Of a stretch of DNA of 54,820 nucleotides, positions 24,242-27,942 are shown piece after piece; positions within the stretch are counted from its first letter, which is position 1; every line of letters starts with the position of its first letter. The position numbers and the translations under genes are program-made. This stretch comes from an uncultured Clostridia bacterium (GTDB lineage Bacteria; Bacillota; Clostridia; UBA1381), in the NCBI GenBank assembly GCA_947585795.1, contig CANPXG010000009.1, positions 1 through 54,820 of the forward strand, in the 5' to 3' direction. The notes beneath the pieces were generated by a model. That model was not told the DNA's origin. It saw only the letters and a program-made list of their open reading frames with translations, and did not search any database.

Positions 24242-24330
24242 GCCGATGTGGCGGAACTGGCAGACGCCCGGGACTTAAAATCCCGTGGGTAATTTTTCCC
24301 GTACCGGTTCGATCCCGGTCATCGGCACCA
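24242..24330 (+). tRNA. tRNA-Leu(UAA)
   Basis: Full 89-base cloverleaf with encoded CCA. The acceptor arms GCCGATG and CATCGGC pair perfectly, the anticodon loop is CTTAAAA between GGGA and TCCC (anticodon TAA), the long class II variable arm is present (TGGG/CCC), and the T-loop is GGTTCGATCC. The 3' 60 bases are the left attachment repeat of the integrative element, so the element rebuilds the gene on insertion. The original terminator has been pushed 3 kb away to 27295-27323. Confidence 0.96.
24271..24330 (+). repeat. attL core (60-bp direct repeat, copy 1)
   Basis: Identical over 60 bases to 27225-27284. Bases immediately outside differ on both sides, which defines the repeat boundaries. 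Confidence 0.93.
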
Positions 24331-24720
24331 CTCAAACGCCCGAAAAACTTACCTTACAATTGGGGCAGGTTGAGGGCTTGAGGGCATAGTTGTCCCTCTG
24401 TCAAGCTGCAGAGGGACTGTAAAGACGATTTCCGGCTACAATTGGGTATAGGAGTAGGGAATCGGTCACAGGGTATCGCTACTCCCGGAGCGCCAACTCC
24501 GGGCGTGGTATGCCCCACGCGTAGCAGTCCGGCCACGCACAGCGCGCGGCCCATACACCACCCGAAAGATTTTAAAGGGTTCATTCGTGTTGCCCCTGAC
24601 GGGCGCGCGCTGTGGATACCGCACAGTGATACGCGTCCGGTAGGATTTTATAGCATCGGCCCCTACCAACCCACCCTTTATTTTCCGGTAAAAAAGGGTG
24701 CACGAAAAAAAGGTAAAAAA
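24331..24720. other. Structured non-coding left arm of the element
   Basis: No coding potential. Stems visible: TCCCTCTG/CAGAGGGA (24393-24416), CCCGGAG/CTCCGGG (24484-24503), GCGTGG/CCACGC (24503-24520), a long-range 10-bp pair CACAGCGCGC (24538-24547) with GCGCGCTGTG (24605-24614), GGTAGG/CCTACC (24639-24667) and CACCCTTT/AAAGGGTG (24672-24700). TACAATTGGG occurs twice (24355-24364 and 24437-24446). The tRNA-Leu promoter would read into it because no terminator follows the tRNA. It may be a structured RNA, a packaging site, or integrase arm-site DNA. Confidence 0.5.
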
Positions 24721-24723
24721 TTG

Positions 24724-24752
24724 TTGATTTTTTGCCCGAAGCCGATTATAAT
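24724..24752 (+). promoter_or_regulatory. Promoter of the element's regulator gene
   Basis: TTGATT, 17-base spacer, TATAAT. Confidence 0.8.
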
Positions 24753-24780
24753 AAAACCAGCGACGGTTATATAACAGCTC

Positions 24781-24795
24781 CTATTTTCAAAATAG
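24781..24795. promoter_or_regulatory. Palindromic operator candidate
   Basis: CTATTTTCAAAATAG, perfect 7-bp arms around a central C, about 22 bases after the predicted transcript start of the regulator. A likely site for autoregulation by the Cro/CI-like protein. Confidence 0.5.
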
Positions 24796-24837
24796 CACAC
24801 AATTAACATTGATGTCAAGAGAAAGGAGCGATTTTTC

Positions 24838-25143
24838 ATGTTACAAAATAATGACAAGACAGAAGCGCAGCGTCAAGGCTTCGGGAATTACCTCAGAAGT
24901 TTACGCATTGAAGCAGGCTTGACATGCAAAGATTTCGCGGAGTTAGTGGGCTTTTCACGCCCCACCGTGTCGCAGTACGAAACGGCAAAAATCATACCGT
25001 CAAACCGTAATCTCGACCGCTTAATCGCTGCCATGCGTGACATAGGCGTTGAAGACTACAAGATAGACATACTACGCCAGCGCCACAGCGCGAGCCTGAA
25101 GGTGTCATCGGGGAAAGTCATAGGATCCGTTTTAAAAGGTTGA
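24838..25143 (+). CDS. Cro/CI-type helix-turn-helix regulator of the element
   Basis: A 101-residue protein with an HTH_3 domain at about residues 15-70 (YLRSLRIEAGLTCKDFAELV, FSRPTVSQYETAKIIPS) and a short basic tail with no oligomerisation or peptidase domain. It is therefore a small repressor of the Cro type rather than a cleavable CI. AAGGAG lies eight bases before the ATG; its own promoter and a palindrome suited to autoregulation are upstream. The stop codon overlaps the -35 of the following small-RNA promoter. Its likely role is to control integrase and the other element genes; no excisionase is evident, so it might also serve as one. Confidence 0.82.
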   Translation: MLQNNDKTEAQRQGFGNYLRSLRIEAGLTCKDFAELVGFSRPTVSQYETAKIIPSNRNLDRLIAAMRDIGVEDYKIDILRQRHSASLKVSSGKVIGSVLKG

Positions 25144-25168
25144 CATAAACCTCTCAACATGTTACAAT
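25140..25168 (+). promoter_or_regulatory. Promoter of a small RNA in the element
   Basis: TTGACA, 17-base spacer, TACAAT. The first T is the last base before the regulator's stop codon. Confidence 0.78.
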
Positions 25169-25174
25169 TAATGC

Positions 25175-25284
25175 ATGGTTATGCAACGCATAAACAGCTG
25201 TAAAACCGTAACTGTTACAAAATCCATTACTCACACTACTGCTACCACAGCAGGACTAAACAACGCCGATGGCGTTGTTTTTTT
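25175..25284 (+). ncRNA. Predicted small RNA, antisense to the integrase 3' end
   Basis: A consensus promoter and a strong terminator (25259-25284) bracket about 110 bases with no RBS-supported ORF. The last 29 bases are antisense to the end of the integrase gene. It could regulate integrase mRNA or act elsewhere. The class is not recognised. Confidence 0.5.
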
Positions 25285-26161
25285 GCGTTCTGACGGGCAA
25301 GAAGCCGTCTAAAAGCTCGGCGGCGCGGCGTAGGTCGTCACTATCAACGGTATCGTAAATGCGCAGCGTAATCGCAACGTCAGCGTGTCCAAGCCACGCC
25401 GAAACGACCTTCGCCGGCACGCCGCGCCTCAAGGCGAGATGAGCGAAGGTATGCCTAAAGACGTGAAAACCACCGCCATAAACACCGATACGAGAGGAGA
25501 AAAACCGCCAATTATCGAGCAAAGTCCTATACTTGATCGGCTGACCAAGCGTATTTGTAAACACACGGTCGCTACAGCGCGATCGATAACGGTCATGAAT
25601 GATACGCTCAAGCTCACCGTAAATCGGCAATGTCCGCCTACCGTGACGCGTTTTCACGCGCTGAAGCTGACCGCGATAGTCGGTATTCCTGATATGCAAC
25701 TGACGGGCAAAGAGATCCACATCAGACCAACACAGCCCGATGAGCTCGCCCACCCGAAGCCCTGTAAGCATGAGCGCTCGATAAACATCACAGTAATAGC
25801 TACCGTCTGCGCACATGATACGCTCTACCTCGTCGCGCCGGAACGGCTTAACCTCGGTCGCGTCCTCGGGTGGGAGCTCCAGTTCATCAAGCATGGCGAG
25901 CGAGCTCACGAGCCCCAGCTTCTTGGCTTTCTGTAGCGATTGCCGTACAAGCGTAAGCATATGCTTCACCGTCGACAGCTTCAAACCGTCCTCGACCATG
26001 CGATTGATCAATTCCTGTATGTCCTCTTGTCGCAGATCAGAAAGTTCAACCTCACAATCCACATGAGACGCATACGTTACGTAACTGTCAAACGTAGACG
26101 GCTTCACCATGATCTTTTTGTAGGTTACCAACCATTTTTTAACCCAGTCTGTTAAATTCAT
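25256..26161 (-). CDS. Tyrosine recombinase/integrase of the element
   Basis: A 301-residue integrase with an N-terminal SAM-like core-binding domain (residues 1-90) and a complete catalytic set: R136 (TGLRVGELIGL), H233-x-x-R236 (HVFRHTFAH), H259 (WLGHADVAIT) and nucleophile Y269 (LRIYDTVD). It lacks the long arm-binding N-terminus of lambda Int but has the size of short phage and ICE integrases. The perfect 60-bp repeats at tRNA-Leu are the expected product of its action. It has its own promoter and a GAGGTGA ribosome site. It is not adjacent to either att site, unlike most islands. Confidence 0.95.
   Translation of the reverse strand: MNLTDWVKKWLVTYKKIMVKPSTFDSYVTYASHVDCEVELSDLRQEDIQELINRMVEDGLKLSTVKHMLTLVRQSLQKAKKLGLVSSLAMLDELELPPEDATEVKPFRRDEVERIMCADGSYYCDVYRALMLTGLRVGELIGLCWSDVDLFARQLHIRNTDYRGQLQRVKTRHGRRTLPIYGELERIIHDRYRSRCSDRVFTNTLGQPIKYRTLLDNWRFFSSRIGVYGGGFHVFRHTFAHLALRRGVPAKVVSAWLGHADVAITLRIYDTVDSDDLRRAAELLDGFLPVRTQKNNAIGVV
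25259..25284 (+). terminator. Terminator of the regulator/small RNA
   Basis: AACAACGCC and GGCGTTGTT pair over GAT, followed by seven Ts. The stem also encodes the last codons of the convergent integrase. Confidence 0.9.
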
Positions 26162-26182
26162 ACAAAATCACCTCACACCGCA

Positions 26183-26211
26183 AGTATACGCCTCGCCTGA
26201 CGCAAAATCAA
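26183..26211 (-). promoter_or_regulatory. Promoter of the integrase
   Basis: Minus strand TTGATT, 17-base spacer, TATACT, about 21 bases before the ATG. A cluster of G-runs lies 20 bp upstream on the same strand. Confidence 0.75.
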
Positions 26212-26561
26212 GCCGCAGGTGCGCGGGTCGCCCCGTTCCCCCGTTCCCCCCTCGAGCTCCCCCCTACGAGCCCCCTCTCCCCGTTCGCGGCGGCGGGTCC
26301 CACGTTCCCGCCTGCCGCGTGATAGGATGATTACAAAATTCGAGGGGGGAATGGCGGGGGGTGGGGCTTCCGTTGTCGGGGCTTTGCCCCGCCCCGCCGC
26401 GGATTTCCGCGGCTCCTTGCCCGCGCTTCCCCGTCTCCTGCGCGCTTCCGCTTGCTCTTCAGAGGTTGCCCGCCCCCTCCCCGACTGGGCGGGCGGATTA
26501 ATGCGGGGCTCCGCCCCGCGCCCCGTTCGGCCCGCCGCCCTGCTACGCCTGGCGCGGGCGT
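26212..26561. other. GC-rich non-coding tract with G-run clusters and hairpins
   Basis: Much more GC-rich than the rest of the window and strongly strand-biased. On the minus strand six runs of four to six Gs fall within 52 bp (26231-26282), and on the plus strand runs of 6, 6 and 4 Gs fall at 26344-26366: strong G-quadruplex candidates. Short hairpins follow (GGGGC/GCCCC, CCGCGG pairs, GCCCGCC/GGCGGGC, GCGGGGC/GCCCCGC). The ORFs on both strands are low-complexity and lack ribosome sites. It may be an origin, a packaging site or a regulatory tract. Confidence 0.5.
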
Positions 26562-26601
26562 ACACCCGTAACGGGACATAAAATGTGCCCGTAACGGGTG
26601 T
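26562..26601. repeat. 40-bp imperfect dyad beside the iterons
   Basis: The outer arms ACACCCGT and ACGGGTGT are perfect. Inside, CCCGTAACGGG occurs twice and ACAT/ATGT closes the centre. It directly abuts the iteron array. Confidence 0.75.
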
Positions 26602-26672
26602 TTTAACGATTTTCGTCCTGTTTTTAACGATTTTCGTCCTGTTTTTAACGATTTTCGTCCTGTTTTTAACGG
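26601..26672. repeat. Iteron-like array, 21-bp period
   Basis: Three copies of TTTTAACGATTTTCGTCCTG (26601-26620, 26622-26641, 26643-26662) at 21-bp spacing, plus a partial copy TTTTAACGG, followed by AT-rich DNA. The two-helical-turn period and position next to a dyad resemble replication iterons or arrayed protein-binding sites. Confidence 0.8.
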
Positions 26673-26719
26673 ATTTTTTGTATCAATTGCTTCCCGCCGA
26701 TCGGAGATAGTCAAGGGTA

Positions 26720-26781
26720 ATAGAGCTAACCGTTTTTCACGCCGTCATGACGATAGAGCTAACCGTTTTTCACGCCGTCAT
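26720..26781. repeat. 33-bp tandem duplication of the gene 3' end
   Basis: 29 of 33 positions starting at 26720 and at 26753 are identical. The unit contains the codons DDGVKNG and the stop of the terminase-like gene, so a second out-of-use stop region trails the gene. Confidence 0.85.
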
Positions 26782-27151
26782 CAGGATCAGATTTGACATT
26801 ATCGATGATAACAACGTCCCGAACGCCCTCGGAAACGGGCGAATCGAGCCCATAATATCGCGCAAGCGCTTTGGCAGCTTGTAACGTAACGCCGTCGACC
26901 GACTCTCCGCGAATTATGCGCGTATAAAGCTCCAAAACCTCTTCTTTACTGGCGATTGCCATTTTATCAGCTCCTTTCACAGTGGATTTCAGGTCGGATT
27001 TTGTGCCGTAAATTAATTTATTATATACCGACATGAGCGCGTCAAACGCCCCACCCCGATACATCTCATCGGGCAAACATTTTTCCTGCAAAATTTTAAT
27101 TTCAGCGCGGATAACTTTCGCCACATCAGACTTTAACAATACCTCTTTCAT
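26759..27151 (-). CDS. Terminase small-subunit-like protein of the element (putative)
   Basis: A 130-residue protein. Residues 64-130 (MAIASKEEVLELYTRIIRGE, ...KALARYYGLDSP..., DVVIIDNV) resemble the N-terminal to middle part of short phage TerS proteins, in which a KEEVLE...RGE segment is followed by KAxELLGKRYGL and a VVIVDD tail. Residues 1-63 are helical and unrecognised. In PICI-type satellites TerS redirects packaging, which would fit here; this is inference from motif memory only. Two starts are possible: 27151 with GAGGAGG 11 bases upstream, and an internal in-frame ATG at 26962 with AAAGGAG at a better 8-base spacing, giving a 67-residue form. A chance similarity or an unrelated phage protein cannot be excluded. 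Confidence 0.5.
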   Translation of the reverse strand: MKEVLLKSDVAKVIRAEIKILQEKCLPDEMYRGGAFDALMSVYNKLIYGTKSDLKSTVKGADKMAIASKEEVLELYTRIIRGESVDGVTLQAAKALARYYGLDSPVSEGVRDVVIIDNVKSDPDDGVKNG

Positions 27152-27175
27152 TTTCGCAAAAACCTCCTCAAAAAA

Positions 27176-27184
27176 CGTGGATAA
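27176..27184 (-). promoter_or_regulatory. DnaA-box-like 9-mer near the right end
   Basis: Minus strand TTATCCACG, eight of nine to the DnaA consensus. A single site, so weak on its own. Confidence 0.3.
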
Positions 27185-27189
27185 CTATG

Positions 27190-27211
27190 CCTCAAAATGA
27201 CCTCAAAATGA
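27190..27211. repeat. Tandem 11-bp direct repeats next to attR
   Basis: CCTCAAAATGA twice without a gap, ending 13 bp before the attR core. Possible arm-type integrase sites. Confidence 0.6.
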
Positions 27212-27224
27212 TCGAAATCACATT

Positions 27225-27284
27225 GGACTTAAAATCCCGTGGGTAATTTTTCCCGTACCGGTTCGATCCCGGTCATCGGCACCA
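27225..27284 (+). repeat. attR core (60-bp direct repeat, copy 2)
   Basis: Exact copy of the 3' 60 bases of tRNA-Leu(UAA) including CCA. It lacks the 5' half, so it is not a functional tRNA gene. Confidence 0.93.
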
Positions 27285-27437: not shown

Positions 27438-27647
27438 TTAAGCCCACGACACCTTTAACTGTTTTTTATTTTCGCAACAATCCGCGAGATATAAGTTAAT
27501 AAGCGTCTGATACGGAATACCTGATGATTCCGATTGAGATTTAAAATATTCAATCGTGTCCTCATCAATGTTAATCGTAATCTGCTTCTTTAGTTTTTTT
27601 GCATACGGATTCTTTTGTGCATTTTTAAAATCGTATTCTTCTCTCAT
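27438..27647 (-). CDS. brnA: BrnA-type antitoxin
   Basis: A 69-residue protein with a C-terminal ribbon-helix-helix: KLKKQITINIDEDTIEYFKS followed by SGIPYQTLINLYLADCC, the BrnA pattern. It neutralises BrnT and probably represses the operon. Start at 27647 because GAGGTGA lies seven bases upstream; it follows brnT by ten bases. The brnT-brnA order is the usual one. Confidence 0.85.
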   Translation of the reverse strand: MREEYDFKNAQKNPYAKKLKKQITINIDEDTIEYFKSQSESSGIPYQTLINLYLADCCENKKQLKVSWA

Positions 27648-27657
27648 ATTAATCACC

Positions 27658-27942
27658 TCATAGATAATATTGCTTTTCTTCGGATTTAGTCGCTTTTCTT
27701 GCGGATATGATCCGTATAACCGATTCTGATTTTCTGTAGCAATGACACACCACAAGCAGATTAGCCCTTTTGCTGAACCCAAGGATTATAAATCTTTCCT
27801 CCTCCTGTGAATGCTCGGGATCGTCTATTACTAATGCTTCCTCATCATAAAATACAGTTTTTGCTTCTTCAAAAGATATTTTATGTTTGGATTGGTTGAT
27901 TCGGTTTTTGTTTTCATCCCATTCAAATCTTATTGTTTCCAT
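27658..27942 (-). CDS. brnT: BrnT-type ribonuclease toxin
   Basis: A 94-residue toxin with the RelE-like BrnT signature: FEWDENKNRINQSKHKISFE, DPEHSQEEERFIILGFS, VVCHCYR and IRIISARKATKSEEKQYY. It should cleave RNA when released from BrnA. Its ATG lies only seven bases from the -10 box, so the mRNA may be leaderless. The pair sits just outside attR of the tRNA-Leu element, in the same accessory zone. Confidence 0.92.
   Translation of the reverse strand: METIRFEWDENKNRINQSKHKISFEEAKTVFYDEEALVIDDPEHSQEEERFIILGFSKRANLLVVCHCYRKSESVIRIISARKATKSEEKQYYL

Follow-up and report, generated by a model that had tools for sequence, protein, structure and literature searches.

A unit of about 3 kb in a leucine tRNA gene, carrying an integrase, a regulator and a terminase-like gene, raises the question of what so small an element is and how it spreads. 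The window analysed here, the whole stretch of 54,820 nucleotides, is contig C9 in the genome (G000) of an uncultured Clostridia bacterium, an assembly of 130 contigs and 2.54 Mb; it holds a 2954-bp unit that is a real, precisely inserted integrative element. As the best explanation for this element and its relatives, at a confidence just short of even, we propose a minimal family (2.95–3.44 kb) of packaging satellites, whose helper would be a resident cluster resembling a gene transfer agent (GTA) or a close PBSX-type relative of that cluster. The comparisons below suggest that these elements of gut Clostridia may spread by riding in the resident GTA-like particle.

A precisely inserted element and its relatives

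The target gene, the ends and the mobility genes of the element are as follows.

24242–24330, + strand: tRNA-Leu(UAA), intact, the target gene, whose last 60 nt form attL (ARAGORN; Rfam RF00005)
24271–24330, + strand: attL core, 60 bp, exact direct repeat (empty site in G004 and G005)
24838–25143, + strand: Cro/CI-type helix-turn-helix (HTH) regulator, 101 aa (HTH_31, E 1.1e-12)
25256–26161, − strand: tyrosine integrase, 301 aa (Pfam Phage_integrase, E 5e-22; PHROG integrase, E 1e-55)
27225–27284, + strand: attR core, 60 bp, exact direct repeat (in G004 and G005 the window's right flank directly follows the tRNA)

The 3' end of tRNA-Leu(UAA) is repeated exactly over 60 bp at a spacing of 2954 bp, as a preliminary description of this DNA had reported; a chance origin of this repeat is excluded, and the tRNA gene is restored intact at attL after insertion. 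Between the repeats lie the HTH regulator (+), the integrase (−) and a TerS-like open reading frame (ORF; −), the first two confirmed by their domain matches as the Cro-type regulator and full tyrosine integrase of that description. Empty sites, which were looked for in related genomes, are present in the congeneric genomes G004 and G005, where tRNA-Leu(UAA) is joined directly to the sequence that follows attR in the window (a match of 91–92 bp at 78–80% identity, beginning 2–3 bases past the tRNA). Because the same tRNA is joined to the window's right flank in both genomes, the insertion is precise. The genome G001 resembles the window's left flank over about 1.3 kb at 71% identity and carries different DNA after the tRNA. 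An intact integrase, direct att repeats and an empty site in relatives, the marks of a site-specific integrative element, are thus all present, and the earlier assignment to an integrative element in tRNA-Leu is borne out by the empty sites together with relatives of the same size.

Four of these relatives emerged from a search of 61 genomes for the same integrase. These four (57–63% identity), one of them in the window's own genome, stand well apart from the other integrases, which reach 38% at most; the window integrase is 55–63% identical to the integrases of its relatives. The second member in the own genome, on contig C23, is a 2988-bp unit with a 59-bp exact repeat, and the two members occupy different leucine tRNAs, Leu(UAA) in the window and Leu(CAA) on C23. 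Two further members, in the uncultured Clostridia metagenome-assembled genomes (MAGs) G007 and G004, both occupy tRNA-Leu(CAA), following the same array of tRNA genes; the former measures 3366 bp with a 57-bp exact repeat, the latter about 3437 bp with a 58-bp att repeat whose copies are 91% identical. The copy in G009 is interrupted by a contig end, and an additional fragment at a contig end (G003, contig C104) places a piece of tRNA-Leu beside ORF A and TerS-B, the two parts of the TerS-like region described below.

The family layout runs tRNA/attL, non-coding tract, HTH gene, integrase, GC-rich tract, ORF A/TerS-B and attR, with the HTH and integrase genes convergent. Common to the members are the integrase, the HTH regulator and a conserved structured non-coding tract. 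When the relatives were checked for signs of a larger prophage origin, they proved equally compact (G007, 3.37 kb; G004, 3.44 kb; C23, 2.99 kb), which rules out the decayed remnant of a large prophage. Ratios of nonsynonymous to synonymous differences (pN/pS) between members of 0.19–0.47, with synonymous sites partly saturated, are consistent with genes that encode selected proteins; the HTH regulator is 63–69% identical to its G004 and G007 counterparts (pN/pS 0.19–0.35). Mobility that is recent or still under way is indicated by the clean att sites and by insertions in Leu(UAA) as well as Leu(CAA) genes of different species.

A putative packaging module and a resident head–tail cluster

The region ahead of attR comprises two parts.

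26759–26962, − strand: TerS-B, a terminase small subunit core without the DNA-binding half, with its own start and Shine-Dalgarno sequence
26960–27151, − strand: ORF A module, about 58–64 aa (MKEVxLKSDxxKVI..YRGGAxxAL), a separate upstream cistron in G003, G004 and G007

This two-cistron module is found in four of the six known members (window, G003, G004 and G007), which all maintain the A-then-B order. Taken alone, the TerS-like ORF of the window (26759–27151, −, 130 aa) gives a weak match (Terminase_2, E 0.11). In G003, G004 and G007, ORF A (58–63 aa) and TerS-B (91–118 aa) are overlapping or adjacent cistrons, and TerS-B has its own Shine-Dalgarno sequence. In the window the two lie in one frame with no stop between them, making a 130-aa fusion possible, and the internal ATG at 26962 retains the ribosome-binding site AAAGGAG. 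Of the TerS-like gene described earlier, the TerS homology therefore stands, by profile, and the single gene does not, since the relatives carry two cistrons. ORF A shows pN/pS of 0.26–0.41 and no recognised fold. An AlphaFold model of the window ORF, made without an alignment, reached a predicted local distance difference test (pLDDT) score of 44 and was not used.

The candidate helper is a cluster of about 12 kb on contig C15 of the own genome (about 25.2–38.6 kb; loci L090/L034), found also in loci L091–L094. It encodes, in order, TerS, a PBSX-family terminase large subunit (TerL), an SPP1-type portal, a DUF4355 scaffold, major capsid, major tail, a short tape measure (519–584 aa), Dit, holin and amidase, and no integrase or replication genes were recognised in the cluster loci. 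Of the 16 genomes of the genus, 15 contain TerL of this cluster (62–83% identity), and sister genera contain it at 58–65%; these counts may include some prophage copies, among them the 62% copy of G003. Its left neighbours, which we take from sequence reading to be an IreB-like 83-aa protein, an M16 peptidase and an S24-type repressor, are common to all five loci compared, while the right flank is variable; the repressor gene adjoins the cluster in at least eleven loci. With pN of 0.09–0.31 and pS ranging from 0.58 to near saturation, the cluster is under purifying selection. For the two cluster TerS proteins tested, the alignment to the TerS PHROG is confined to its second half (positions 149–241 of 261). 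A conserved, selected head–tail cluster without integrase or replication genes, and with a TerS devoid of the DNA-binding domain, bears the bioinformatic marks of a GTA, and this genus-wide head–tail–lysis cluster is a new candidate GTA of gut Clostridia, independent of the element's fate.

GTA-like packaging has been reported in gut Ruminococcaceae, Oscillospiraceae and Christensenellaceae (2026, PMC12946183); the TerS of these gut Clostridia GTAs has no obvious DNA-binding domain, and the packaged fragments measure 4.6–8.9 kb (PMC12946183). Like the resident cluster, FpGTA I and the GTA-like operons of that study place such a TerS beside TerL, portal, scaffold and capsid genes, and FpGTA I is likewise near-ubiquitous within a genus and free of replication genes (PMC12946183). 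FpGTA is probably podovirus-like, whereas the resident cluster is siphovirus-like by its genes, with a short tape measure and with holin and amidase in one locus.

The link between element and cluster lies in their small terminases. A profile built solely from the four element TerS-B sequences was run against the ORFs of the fetched loci; because profiles built from relatives were used, the TerS identity is firm. Cluster TerS proteins gave one contiguous match each; most scored 30–36 bits (E about 1e-8 to 1e-10), that of G000 23.0 bits and that of G015 19 bits, while longer prophage TerS proteins (107–198 aa) matched in two pieces flanking an inner loop (19–31 bits). With the TerS of the own genome's cluster included, the profile also matches the C-terminus of the TerS of PDB 3zqp (E 0.02). 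On these comparisons, TerS-B is a terminase-small-subunit homologue that lacks two segments also missing from the cluster TerS, the N-terminal DNA-binding half and the inner loop. The same comparison bears on whether the element could instead be the satellite of an ordinary phage, either temperate or virulent, with TerS-B pairing not with the cluster but with a PBSX/SPP1-type prophage TerL such as that on contig C110 of G000. The longer prophage TerS proteins retain the two segments that TerS-B and the cluster TerS have lost, which argues against such a helper. The own genome does encode another TerL of this type, 59% identical and accompanied by a longer TerS that keeps the loop, and characterised TerS-carrying satellites, the phage-inducible chromosomal islands (PICIs), use phage helpers; weighing both sides, we consider a phage helper unlikely.

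For the packaging satellite that we favour, a sequence of steps can be proposed. Relief of the HTH repressor would allow the integrase to excise a circle of about 3 kb. TerS-B would then assemble with TerL and portal of the cluster, or with those of a related PBSX-type prophage, and ORF A, encoded in the same operon, would supply or assist selective loading of element DNA. The loading site may be the structured tract beside attL, so that selectivity could reside in ORF A, the tract or both. DNA packaged in this way would reach a neighbouring cell and reintegrate at tRNA-Leu. The narrower form of this proposal, in which the element is a GTA satellite whose GTA-type TerS and ORF A turn non-selective packaging into self-packaging, is possible but on balance doubtful. 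If shown, it would constitute a new category, and a parasite of this kind would offer a direct route to studying how a non-selective packaging motor becomes selective.

A different role for the same protein is that of a dominant-negative packaging inhibitor, carried by a selfish or immobile integrase islet and guarding the cell from lysis driven by phage or GTA. The TerS-B core, which has no DNA-binding half, would likely mix with the resident TerS, and cluster and prophage TerS homologues are encoded in the same genome. The clean att sites and the insertions in two leucine tRNAs across species speak for mobility and against such an islet, which we regard as very improbable.

Several observations weigh against a packaging satellite. 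In profile tests, the clean 2988-bp member on C23 yielded no TerS-B and no ORF A homologue, and it keeps every other shared part; because of this member, TerS is not a universal part of the family. This is the main difficulty, and C23 either borrows the TerS of another member in the same cell or shows TerS to be cargo. Beyond integrase, HTH regulator and ORF A/TerS-B, no convincing genes were found in the element, and neither a replication gene nor a capsid-remodelling gene was seen. The helper is not fixed, because one prophage TerS (31.0 bits) equals the weaker cluster TerS proteins and the own-cluster TerS reaches only 23.0 bits; candidates are the GTA-like cluster and a related prophage, and the element may also have no helper at all. 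Co-occurrence with TerL is uninformative because related TerL genes are present in nearly every genome of the genus. IMG/VR yielded no relative of the integrase or TerS-B, and INPHARED phages no DNA match. The phage satellite of the preliminary description is a candidate reading, and the TerS type nearest to that of the element comes from a GTA-like cluster, not from an ordinary phage.

For C23, a 70-aa ORF was considered as an ORF A homologue; its support was gone once that ORF was excluded from the profile.

A conserved tract and hairpin beside attL

The left end of the element carries two further features.

24331–24720, + strand: conserved non-coding tract beside attL, predicted to be structured (77–80% identity in C23, G004 and G007)
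24636–24672, + strand: hairpin with the near-invariant loop GATTTTATAGCRTCGGCYC, at the end of the left tract (12 sequences)

The tract contains no conserved reading frame. In a four-sequence alignment, 16 predicted pairs are retained by two-sided change, with an overall covariation term that is not favourable. Known RNA families were considered, and the tract has no match in Rfam. The hairpin is better defined: across its 12 sequences all five outer pairs covary, none of 500 shuffles attained its score and sliding controls scored far lower. It is absent from Rfam, a search of 397 other genomes across the phylum did not recover its core pattern, and it may represent a new structured nucleic-acid family carried by Clostridial mobile elements.

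Of the twelve places that carry this hairpin (L006, L007, L030–L032, L041 and L065–L069 among the loci), five are family members and two are lone copies, on contig C37 of the own genome and in G015. L065 and L066 are provirus records, the former containing tail and lysis genes; at L069, from Clostridium sp. C8-1-8, the hairpin adjoins a tyrosine recombinase. The last two are L067, a replicon or island that encodes a G2P-type (rolling-circle-type) Rep together with ParA/ParB-like genes, and L068, an island encoding an integrase and a MobV relaxase (Mob_Pre, E 3e-33). Matches to the hairpin pattern in viral contigs (L049–L051) fell inside coding sequence and were discarded as chance. Related proteins of 920–976 aa (phrog_8308) are encoded at L066:8836–11598 and L069:14375–17305, and in both loci the hairpin lies beside a tyrosine recombinase.

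The occurrence of the hairpin beside the MobV relaxase and in the Rep replicon speaks for another account, in which the element is an integrative mobilizable element (IME) moved by a conjugative relaxase, the tract beside attL serving as origin of transfer (oriT) and/or single-strand origin (sso) and TerS-B being incidental or defensive. TAGCRT in the hairpin loop resembles TAGCGT, the CS-6 box of sso (PMC4598088), and the loop lies within a series of predicted stem-loops, like the sso of an integrative and conjugative element (ICE) with its three stem-loops (PMC4595007); this resemblance to single-strand origins is a lead only. Pfam and PHROG gave no relaxase match among the element proteins, no known oriT or sso was matched, PLSDB contained no relative and the hairpin also occurs in the two provirus records; on this evidence a mobilizable element is improbable. 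For the tract and hairpin, a regulatory RNA and a packaging or recombination site are equally possible.

Known systems and further features

Among known systems, the phage-inducible chromosomal minimalist islands (PICMIs) of Vibrionaceae resemble the element in their very small size, their short list of core genes, the use of an integrase to insert at a fixed chromosomal site and the lack of capsid-remodelling genes (PMC10803314). PICMI115, about one eighth of its ~49-kb phage, lies next to fis, has no terS homologue found, and among satellites whose activity has been characterised is described as the smallest (PMC10803314); if packaged, the present elements would be smaller still and would demonstrate that satellites can evolve against domesticated viruses. 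In contrast to PICMIs, the element is about 3 kb, targets tRNA-Leu in Clostridia MAGs rather than a fis-adjacent site in Vibrionaceae, carries TerS-B in four of six members, has only a putative helper and shows no replication gene, the PICMI core being excision and replication genes.

With the Gram-positive PICIs, including Staphylococcus aureus pathogenicity islands (SaPIs), it shares an integrase, an HTH regulator, a TerS homologue and att repeats. SaPI-type islands are several times larger and carry replication and capsid-redirecting genes, whereas the element has three to four genes and a TerS without the DNA-binding half. The PICI pri/rep module and an origin by the regulatory genes are missing, and the tandem repeats are not conserved. 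The element works like a minimal satellite yet is neither a PICI nor a PICMI. Like IMEs and islets resembling cis-mobilizable elements (CIMEs), it has a tRNA-targeted integrase, is small and would depend on other elements; it differs in having TerS and no relaxase or identified oriT.

The remaining features of the element are these.

24383–24395: candidate integrase arm site, inverse of GGAYAACTATGCC (inferred from inverted repeat I12)
24724–24752, + strand: sigma-70-like promoter TTGATT-17-TATAAT ahead of the HTH gene (from sequence; similar in G004 and G007)
26173–26600: GC-rich non-coding tract, sequence not conserved
26601–26677: 21-bp tandem repeat, 3.6 copies, window only
26720–26785: 33-bp direct repeat, 2 copies (repeat search)
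27109–27191: candidate right arm sites, GGATAACT at 27109–27116 and GGATAACTATGCC at 27179–27191 (inferred)

In G007 and G004, copies like GGATAACT lie close to the opposite end, as GGATAAA does in C23. Between the integrase and TerS regions, no nucleotide match was found among the relatives. The two structured non-coding tracts of the preliminary description accordingly reduce to the conserved left one, the GC-rich right one being unconserved. Of its iterons and origin-like DNA, the 21-bp tandem repeat exists; an iteron origin at 26601–26677 was rejected, as the repeat is unconserved and has no counterpart in the relatives.

Beyond the element, a BrnT/BrnA-type toxin–antitoxin pair (27438–27942; Pfam E 1e-30 and 1e-8) lies immediately past attR in the window. 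In G004 (contig C1), a ParA-like gene is the next one beyond attR of the element (L032, after 10958), which suggests a second element beside it. A different tRNA-Leu(CAA) element of about 6 kb, with integrase, excisionase-like and FtsK-like genes, occupies about 1.0–7.3 kb of L135 (G003, contig C91). Together with L032 and L095, it suggests that tRNA-Leu(CAA) is an insertion hotspot where elements lie side by side.

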